Assembly: GCA_001799695.1 (NCBI GenBank)
Contig: MGTY01000038.1
Span: 7,880-58,564 of the forward strand
DNA length: 50,685 nt
DNA from: Elusimicrobia bacterium GWA2_69_24
Lineage (GTDB): Bacteria; Elusimicrobiota; Elusimicrobia; UBA1565
Reading direction: 5' to 3'
Of this stretch, positions 8,957 to 25,492 are shown in pieces. Position 1 is the stretch's first letter, and each line of letters starts with the position of its first letter. The notes below the pieces were generated by a model. It saw only the letters and a program-made list of their open reading frames with translations, made no database searches and was not told where the DNA came from. Both the position numbers and the translations under genes were made by a program.

Positions 8957-9069
8957 GCCCGGGCTGTGCCCGGGCACAGTTGCGGCGCGCGCGCCGGCAG
9001 GCAACTGGCAGCGCACGCCGCAGACCGTGAGCGTTGGGCAGACCTGAAGCAGAGCGGAATAGAAGAGCC
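8957..9069. other. Structured spacer downstream of the M2 peptidase gene
   Basis: The 113-bp gap begins with the dispersed palindrome CTGTGCCCGGGCACAG. An inverted repeat AGTTGC...GCAACT enclosing GGCGCGCGCGCC follows. No T-run is present, so termination is uncertain. Confidence 0.45.
8964..8979. repeat. Dispersed 16-bp palindrome, copy 1
   Basis: CTGTGCCCGGGCACAG, perfectly self-complementary, 7 bp after the M2 peptidase stop codon. Four further identical cores occur in the window, all intergenic. Confidence 0.8.
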
Positions 9070-9922: not shown

Positions 9923-10028
9923 GACGGCTGACATCGGGGACGGTTGGTTCCAGTTGCGGAGCGACAGACGGCGCGACGATCGTAGTCGGGACTGTGCCCG
10001 GGCACAGTCCTCGGCCCGCCCGGGGGGA
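9923..10028. other. Short spacer with dispersed palindrome
   Basis: About 105 bp between the L,D-transpeptidase remnant and the end of the SRPBCC gene. It contains palindrome copy 2 and no recognisable gene. Confidence 0.5.
9992..10007. repeat. Dispersed 16-bp palindrome, copy 2
   Basis: CTGTGCCCGGGCACAG, here extended to a perfect 22-bp palindrome (GGA...TCC, 9989-10010). It lies downstream of the minus-strand SRPBCC gene, where it could act as a 3' hairpin. Confidence 0.8.
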
Positions 10029-12618: not shown

Positions 12619-12627
<9 letters not shown>

Positions 12628-12989
12628 TGAGTCATAAGTCCAATGACATTCGTCACCCCGGCGAAAGCCGGGGTCCAGGCGCCACACGTCACCCCGGCGA
12701 AAGCCGGGGTCCAGGCAACAGAACAGGATTCTTGAATCCGTTCCACACGCTGGCTACCGGCTGGCGCCGGTATGACGGCTAGCCCGAACCTTCTGGGCGA
12801 CTGTGCCCGGGCACAGTCCGGGGGGGACCGTCGCTAGATGAAATGGACGAGCCAGGCGCCAGTCGTCACCCCGGCGAAAGCCGGGGTCCAGGCAACAGAA
12901 CAGGATTCTTGAATCCGTTCCACACGCCGGCTACCGGCTGGCGCCGGTATGACGGATTTTTAAATGCAAAGAAGCGTTGCGTACACTAG
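12619..12989. mobile_element. MITE-like element, copy A
   Basis: A non-coding element of ~370 bp between convergent glgX and the phosphoesterase gene. The left end CTAA-TGTAGTGAGTC matches the inverted ends of copy B; the right end ...TACA-CTAG is partly deleted. Inside are two copies of a unit that starts GTCACCCCGGCGAAAGCCGG and ends CTGGCGCCGGTATGACGG, the first with a 34-bp internal duplication. Between the units is the palindrome CTGTGCCCGGGCACAG. No transposase is present. The flanking stop codons lie in the element ends: glgX TAG on the left, phosphoesterase TAG within the right CTAG. Confidence 0.7.
12801..12816. repeat. Dispersed 16-bp palindrome, copy 3
   Basis: CTGTGCCCGGGCACAG in the centre of MITE-like element A, between the two long internal repeat units. 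Confidence 0.8.
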
Positions 12990-23917: not shown

Positions 23918-25156
23918 ATGGAAAGCGACGCCAATTCCAAACTCGCCCACCGCTACGAGATCGCGGTCTCGGTGTTCCTGCTCGCCCTGACCTTCCTATG
24001 GCGGGACAACCCGGAATTCGTGTTCCCCGAGATCCTCTACGTCATCGTACTCCTGCTCGGGGTCAACCTGGGGACGGGAGTGGTGATGCGGCGCCTCCCG
24101 GTCGGCTCCTGGTTCTTCGCCCCCATGACCATGGCCAACTGCGCCGTCATCACCGCGGCCCTGCGCTGCTCCGGGGGGGCCGAGTCGCGGCTGTGGGTCC
24201 TCTATCTCCTGCCCATCTTCACGAGCTGCCTCCTCCTGACCGGGCGACAGGTGCTCTGGGTCCTGCTGGGGACGCTCACGTTCAATGGAGCCTTCCACGC
24301 GACCGCCGCCGCGGTGTTCGGACGCCAGGAGCTCTTCGAACTCGTCCTCAAAAGCGGCGTCCTGGTCTTCAGCGGCGCCGCGGGCTGGAAGCTGGCCAGC
24401 CGCCAGCGCGCGGCCGCGGAGCGCGCGGACCGGCAAAGGCTCGACCTGGCGCGGCTGGAGGCGCAGGCCGCCGAGCGGGAGAGCCGGCATGACGCGTCGG
24501 ACGGGGAGGGCGACCTCGGCCTCATGGTCTCGCGGCTCACCCACGACCTGCGCACCCCCGTCGCCATCATCCTGGGGAGCACGGAACTCCTCCTCCTCCA
24601 GGACGAGCTCCCTCACGACGAGCTGAGGCGGGACCTTGAGCGCATCCAGCGCAGCGCCAAGAGCTGCTCCACCCGGCTCGACTGGATATCAGGCATCGCC
24701 GGACGCAAGGAGTTCCACCCCGTCCCCTGCGACTTCCCCGCTCTGCTGACCGCGGCGCTCACGGAAGCGGGGCCGTCTTTGCAGCGGCGCCGCCTCTCGG
24801 TCGAGACCGTCTGCGGCGACGGACTGCCGCAGGTGTCCCTCGACGCCCCGCAGCTCGAACGGGTCCTGCGGACCCTCCTGGCCGCCCTGGCGGAGAACCT
24901 CCGCGATGACGGCCGCCTCACCGTCTCCACGGAGGCGGTCCTGGACGAAGGGATCCTGTCCCGGATCCGCTGCGCGTTCCGCTCCGAGGACGCAGTTCCC
25001 GGGAACCGGCTGGACCTGGACTCCACCGTCGAGCTCTGCCTGGCCCGCGAGATCGTCCGCCGTCACGGCGGAGAACTGGTAGCGGAAGAGACTCTGGGGA
25101 CCCGCATCGGGGCCTTCTTCACTTTGCCGGCCCCGTCGCCCTCTCCCACGATCTAG
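23918..25156 (+). CDS. Membrane histidine kinase with degenerate ATPase domain
   Basis: A 412-residue protein. About five to six hydrophobic helices fill residues 15-165, a linker coiled coil follows (RAAAERADRQRLDLARLEAQ), then HisKA with LTHDLRTPVAII (His209). The ATP-binding domain is unusual: the N-box position reads LERVLRTLLAALAENLRDDG without the canonical NLxxNAxK, and no DxGxG or GxGLGL is visible, although LDSTVELCLAREIVRRHGGE resembles the region after G2. It may bind ATP poorly or act as a scaffold or phosphatase. Its TAG stop is inside the CTAG at the left boundary of repeat element B. Confidence 0.75.
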   Translation: MESDANSKLAHRYEIAVSVFLLALTFLWRDNPEFVFPEILYVIVLLLGVNLGTGVVMRRLPVGSWFFAPMTMANCAVITAALRCSGGAESRLWVLYLLPIFTSCLLLTGRQVLWVLLGTLTFNGAFHATAAAVFGRQELFELVLKSGVLVFSGAAGWKLASRQRAAAERADRQRLDLARLEAQAAERESRHDASDGEGDLGLMVSRLTHDLRTPVAIILGSTELLLLQDELPHDELRRDLERIQRSAKSCSTRLDWISGIAGRKEFHPVPCDFPALLTAALTEAGPSLQRRRLSVETVCGDGLPQVSLDAPQLERVLRTLLAALAENLRDDGRLTVSTEAVLDEGILSRIRCAFRSEDAVPGNRLDLDSTVELCLAREIVRRHGGELVAEETLGTRIGAFFTLPAPSPSPTI

Positions 25157-25492
25157 TGCAGTGAGTCATCAGTCCAATTACATTCGTCACCCCGGCGAAG
25201 GCCGGGGTCCAGGCGCCAGAACAGGAATCTTGAATCCGTTCCACACGCTGGCTGCCGGCTGGCGCCGGTACGACGGCTAGCCCGAACCTTCTGGGCGACT
25301 GTGCCCGGGCACAGTCCGGGGGGGCCCGCCGCTAGATAAAATGGACGAGCCAGGCGCCAGTCGTCACCCCGGCGAAAGCCGGGGTCCAGGCGCCAGAACA
25401 GGAATCTTGAATCCGTTCCACACGCTGGCTGCCGGCTGGCGCCGGTATGACGGCTTTTCAAATTTAAAGAAGCGTTGGACTCACTACACTAG
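25153..25492. mobile_element. MITE-like element, copy B (complete ends)
   Basis: A 340-bp non-coding element. It is bounded by CTAG on both sides, with inverted ends TGCAGTGAGTC (25157-25167) and GACTCACTACA (25478-25488) matching at 10 of 11 positions. Two ~95-bp units beginning GTCACCCCGGCGAA(A/G)GCCGG flank a centre containing CTGTGCCCGGGCACAG. It is alignable with copy A along its length. The 4-bp CTAG at each end looks like a target duplication, as made by IS5-type transposases, which prefer YTAR. The stop codons of both convergent neighbours are these CTAG copies. No transposase is encoded. Confidence 0.8.
25299..25314. repeat. Dispersed 16-bp palindrome, copy 4
   Basis: CTGTGCCCGGGCACAG in the centre of MITE-like element B. 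Confidence 0.8.

Follow-up and report, generated by a model that had tools for sequence, protein, structure and literature searches.

How can a transposon-like element sit between two convergent genes when each gene takes its stop codon from one of the element's own borders, and both still seem to encode a complete protein? This question is raised by a locus in the window, the whole 50,685-nucleotide stretch of Elusimicrobia bacterium GWA2_69_24 analyzed here, in which a 340-bp non-coding segment (25153-25492) with near-identical inverted ends is flanked by CTAG on its left and on its right. An earlier note on this DNA had described the segment, its inverted ends and the enclosing CTAGs exactly as the letters stand, and had also read correctly that each convergent neighbor ends at a TAG within its own CTAG, the histidine kinase gene at the left one and a conserved gene of the opposite strand (gene B) at the right one. 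The account that I favor, and to which I give a probability of about 85%, is that an IS630-derived MITE inserted in a CTAG shared by the overlapping stops of the two genes and left both proteins unharmed.

The element and its repeat family

The junctions read ACGAT-CTAG-TGCAGTGAGTC ... GACTCACTACA-CTAG-GGGAAGC, with the two CTAGs at 25153-25156 and 25489-25492, and exact matches to CTAGTGNAGTGAGTC occur within the window at these two sites only, while a second family copy has its left end at position 12619, which matches CTAGTGNAGTGAGTC with 1 mismatch. If the duplicated target is TA, the outer C (25153) and the outer G (25492) belong to the target and the element proper runs from 25156 to 25489 (Table 1). 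The element is a long form of its family, with a segment X flanked by two cores.

Table 1. Features of the locus and of the second family copy, in window positions
Feature	Position	Strand	Remarks
Histidine kinase gene	23918..25156	+	Stop TAG 25154-25156
Gene B, 422 aa	25489..26757	-	Stop TAG read 25491 to 25489; conserved protein
MITE, 334 bp on the TA-duplication model	25156..25489	+	Imperfect terminal inverted repeats, two core copies, central segment
Left TA of probable target duplication	25154..25155	.	With C25153 and the element's G25156 gives CTAG; choice of TA over 4 bp based on IS630 family membership and G008 copies
Right TA of probable target duplication	25490..25491	.	With the element's C25489 and G25492 gives CTAG
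Left terminal repeat	25156..25186	+	Family left end vs G012 IS630 left end: 21/31 positions identical
Right terminal repeat, plus strand encoding KFKEALDSLH then TAG	25460..25489	-	Vs five IS630 right ends: 24-28 of 31 identical
First core copy with hairpin module GTCACCCCGGCGAAGGCCGGGGTCCAG	25181..25278	+	98-nt direct repeat, 97% identical to second copy
Second core copy	25358..25455	+	Direct repeat of first core
Segment X between cores	25277..25351	+	Contains palindrome GACTGTGCCCGGGCACAGTC (25297-25316); other long copies have X too, and it also lies beside MITE ends
Second family copy in window, longer and more degraded	12619..12989	+	Left CTAA, right CTAG; segment X present

Within the assembly of its own genome (G000; 4.2 Mb in 132 contigs, 85% complete), a blast search with the element gave 67 matches, and the bare terminal inverted repeat (TIR) TGYAGTGAGTC occurred 36 times against 0 for a reversed control pattern, so the repetition is not due to chance. 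The further copies with the same ends that the earlier note had expected do exist, approximately 99 ends and 39 paired copies having been found in the ~650 kb of G000 examined, where the usual copy is 154-155 bp long and longer forms carry extra modules. The core hairpin modules are of the type GTCACCCCGGCGAAAGCCGGGGTCCAG, at times in tandem with 36-bp spacing, and their number differs from copy to copy. The element, being short, non-coding, multicopy and TIR-bearing, belongs to a large MITE family, whose ends are also found in other genera of the order, with the CTAG plus TIR pattern present in 8 genomes from 6 genera among the 56 genomes searched.

A few peculiarities of the copies are recorded here in their own right. 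Segment X lies both inside long MITE copies (window 25277-25351 and 12779-12850) and directly beside MITE ends (L251, L015, L226 and L012), as if two copies had carried the host DNA trapped between them along as a composite. A near-perfect palindrome with the core CTGTGCCCGGGCACAG appears in the window at 8962, 9990-10009, 12799-12818, 25297-25316 and 49961; there is one such palindrome per long MITE copy, within segment X, and outside the MITEs it was seen at about two dozen places in ~650 kb, nearly all of them apparently non-coding. Binding by a protein, or a further kind of hairpin repeat, may account for it. Also, in a solo left end (L225 14536, G000 C72:29532) CTAG comes immediately after the hairpin (GGGGTCCA-CTAG), as if a one-ended 50-bp form had inserted, and at another left end (L060, G000 C103:137-151) unrelated sequence begins about 66 bases further on and looks like the terminal part of a group II intron.

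An IS630 partner and the duplicated unit

The earlier note had attributed the element to IS5-type transposases that insert at YTAR and duplicate 4 bp, and it is this assignment that was not supported. A pattern match in G012 (contig C4) proved to be the end of a complete element encoding a transposase of 352 aa that matches NF033545 (IS630 family) with E=4.6e-80 and DDE_3 with E=6.7e-20; a second complete IS630 element with the same ends is present in G045, its transposase 71% identical, and IS630 right ends together with transposase C-termini were found in G031 (two), G002 and G054. The insertion sequence with the same terminal repeats that the note had suggested looking for was thus found in IS630-family elements, complete in the related genera represented by G012 and G045. 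Between the right ends of the MITEs and those of these insertion sequences, as many as 30 of 31 positions agree. In the window copy the right end, in my own reading, gives KFKEALDSLH-stop where copies of the insertion sequence end in ...KSKEALGTLH and ...KCKEALETLH, each before a stop, such that the MITE appears still to encode what is left of the IS630 transposase C-terminus. Furthermore, none of the six IS630 right ends found has a stop of the transposase frame inside the TIR; in each, the frame ends at the TAG made by the TA and the target's G. Since the matching transposases and ends are of IS630 type, the class of the element is IS630, probably with TA duplication and with a preference for CTAG, not IS5 with a 4-bp YTAR target.

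Mobilization by an IS5-type transposase with duplication of a 4-bp YTAR target could draw on the CTAG at both sides, which is a 4-bp direct repeat, on the variants CTAA and TTAG, both of which match YTAR, and on a copy (L074) with CTAA on both sides; I consider it very improbable, given that elements with these ends encode IS630 transposases and that DDE_Tnp_1 (PF01609; IS4/IS5-type) is represented by few genes in nine genomes, none carrying these ends. Other candidate partners were discarded as well: searches of rve (PF00665) and IS701-type (PF13546, absent from G000) transposases gave none with these ends, a TIR-like stretch beside transposases of G000 contig C51 (TGTCGTGAGTCATCCGTCC) was dropped for want of a partner, and the resemblance of an IS1634-like element in G042 (L116) is short only. 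No IS630 transposase was found in G000 (assembly 85% complete) or in the assembly of G026, a genome discussed below; that of G000 may have disappeared from the genome or fall outside the assembled part, and a relic family is not defined by having such a copy in its own genome.

Which unit is duplicated has to be judged from other copies, because CTAG is palindromic and TA and 4-bp duplications are indistinguishable at the window locus. The IS630-family members that have been studied duplicate TA (PMC2170065), and the IS630 target has been given as NTAN (PMC5678879). In genus g5, the outer base of the copies may be C, T or A and is other than C at 9/21 ends, whereas the inner G varies at 2/21 (p=0.03; this and the later p values are nominal, with several tests run on the same data), which also speaks against the IS5-type reading; as a CTAG-containing pattern was used to find some of these ends, the outer variation is, if anything, underestimated. 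Four non-CTAG copies of G008 (L136, L233, L237 and L239) need zero mutations under TA duplication and do need mutation under 4 bp, while for two others (L074 and L236) the 4-bp duplication fits better, and an empty site between atpD and atpC, described below, is compatible with both. On balance, I take TA to be the more probable duplicated unit.

The element also folds strongly as RNA (-160.9 kcal/mol, z=-5.4), and one could suppose that it is kept as a bidirectional terminator or a REP-like hairpin repeat between convergent genes, with mobility incidental or ancient, as the fold, the convergent location and the variable number of hairpin modules among copies would allow. The ends, the target sites and the transposase remnant are all of transposon type, copies also lie between co-directional genes such as atpD/atpC, and an Rfam search with the element gave no match, for which reasons I find this improbable as the principal explanation; a terminator role could be a secondary function of a MITE that arrived by transposition.

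Stop codons at the ends of the element

The plus-strand neighbor is a kinase by its HisKA domain (E=3.4e-10; profile match, with the open frame checked), and gene B matches nothing in Pfam or NCBIfam and has relatives in 45/57 genomes. The protein of gene B aligns to its last residue, ending in ...FARAFAAESFP in the window, ...FARAFVEARFP in G001 and ...WARDFVEARFP in G007, each followed by the stop, and since its C-terminus falls at the alignment column of its orthologues, the stop is native and the protein has not been truncated by the element. When the flanks are joined without the element (ACGATCTAGGGGAAGC), a single CTAG remains, whose TAG ends the kinase frame on one strand and, through its complement, that of gene B on the other. 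The earlier note's idea of one former CTAG serving as overlapping stops is therefore what the joined flanks yield, and an exact empty site, again with a single CTAG, exists for a sister insertion in G026. Its further statement that target duplication gave each gene its own stop is right in outcome and not in detail, as on the TA model the terminal base of the element completes both stops.

The kinase adjoins gene B in 0/29 loci examined in relatives, hence there is no orthologous empty site at the window locus, and a kinase scan of genome contigs returned distant kinases only. For the insertions of G026, where the copies have near-identical ends, joined flanks were searched in genomes of the same genus, and the insertion between atpD and atpC has its exact empty site in G021, GACGCCTCC-TAG-GCCGCGAGC, with 93% identity over 480 bp and with its one CTAG being the atpD stop. 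Similarly, an insertion at a probable rnhB in G026 lies on the gene's stop where the G021 counterpart has TAA, and an element in G042 lies on the stop of a gene that, judged by its sequence alone, probably encodes a branched-chain aminotransferase; at that stop G029 and G033 have TAA. As a side observation, four contigs of G026 (C18, C28, C50 and C52) break at their ends inside copies with near-identical ends, which suggests recent activity.

How general is this placement? Gene stops were called with my own simple codon-usage score, trained on the same genome and with my own thresholds, rather than with a gene caller. By this measure, 17/35 intact CTAG ends in G000 are stops of a coding frame reading toward the element, as compared with 51/400 sides of other CTAGs, and 0 intact ends lie within another coding frame. 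When all ends are included, decayed ones too, 22/97 are stops against the same 51/400 control sides (p=0.017), an enrichment of only about twofold. In G026, 6/11 ends are gene stops against 18/127 in the control (p=0.004; the count leaves out a plus-strand "gene stop" at L253 that is antisense of atpC), and all eleven ends are CTAG. Both convergent neighbors stop at the ends of an element in three G000 copies, namely the one in the window, L022 and L212.

Stop use goes together with an intact CTAG (17/22 versus 18/75, OR 10.8, p=9e-6 in G000), suggesting that CTAG is maintained where selection acts on the stop. CTAG is rare in G000, at 0.37 per kb versus 2.9 expected, 7/14 of the CTAGs in the window are in or at the two MITE copies, and non-stop junctions in G000 are often decayed, with CCAG the commonest product. 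These same observations (the depletion, the frequent decay at non-stop junctions and the association of intact CTAG with stop use) could be taken to mean that the excess of stop codons is an effect of decay and not of insertion or survival, a counter-selected CTAG persisting only where its TAG is a needed stop. I regard this as unlikely, albeit the most serious of the alternatives considered, as the twofold excess remains with all ends counted, the near-identical, uniformly CTAG ends of G026 are still often gene stops, and the precise native end of both genes at the window locus would go unexplained. A separate observation on the left junctions of G000 is that CCAG (20) outnumbers CTAG (16), the change being mostly T to C on the strand reading into the element, and this excess, along with the genome-wide shortage of CTAG, hints at CTAG-directed mutation or selection.

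Proposed mechanism and comparison with known systems

In the mechanism that I propose, the MITE would be a non-autonomous deletion derivative of an IS630-family insertion sequence, whose transposase, acting in trans as I infer, would excise it, insert it at the TA of a CTAG and duplicate that TA. The element starts with G and ends with C, and insertion would thereby recreate CTAG at both junctions, C-TA-[G...C]-TA-G. The target here would have been the lone CTAG formed by the overlapping stops of the convergent kinase gene and gene B, so that after insertion the TAG of each gene would consist of target TA plus the element's terminal G, with no codon changed in either protein, and the event was presumably neutral at this locus. 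Copies at stop codons would survive because they are harmless, their CTAG kept by selection on the stop and decaying at other junctions. A broader and more tentative idea, which I hold at somewhat under even odds, is that stop codons serve as safe sites for an IS630 lineage specific for CTAG and for its MITEs, in that the element's ends rebuild the host TAG and the transposase borrows its own stop from the target TAG, tying together target choice, host tolerance and transposase termination.

Beyond the corrected class, IS630 in place of IS5, the significance of the locus would lie in a sequence-level reason for the tolerance of transposons in gene-dense genomes, in that a rare palindromic target is often a stop codon, and element ends that restore the stop of both neighbors would be part of that tolerance. 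IS630-linked MITEs, the CTAG preference of IS630 and neighbor stops encoded by repeats are already known; for the double stop arrangement and the borrowed transposase stop, no description was found in the literature searched, which lacked most subscription journals.

With IS630 of Shigella sonnei and ISY100, of the IS630/Tc1/mariner family, the element shares its transposase family and, probably, TA duplication, and the title of Tenzen and Ohtsubo (1991), as cited in PMC2170065, indicates that IS630 prefers the TA in CTAG; it differs in being a non-coding derivative from another bacterial lineage, and may differ as well in that the six related IS right ends take the transposase stop from the target TAG. 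The MITE RUP of Streptococcus pneumoniae, which is linked to IS630-Spn1 (PMC2229807), is likewise a short non-autonomous repeat with IS630-like ends, a TA target and many, mostly intergenic, copies, but its sequence and host differ, and the present element targets CTAG, carries hairpin modules, occurs in long composite forms and is placed on stop codons. The BOX repeats of S. pneumoniae encode stop codons of their neighbors, for 36 genes in one strain (PMC3049150); however, the BOX stop lies inside the repeat, whereas here a pre-existing TAG would be rebuilt at the junction, at the native end of the protein and on both sides at once. Finally, REP/BIME elements with RAYT (Y1_Tnp) also feature intergenic hairpin modules in variable number, but a RAYT link was rejected here, as 0/14 Y1_Tnp loci have a hairpin module nearby and the element has the ends and target of a DDE transposon.
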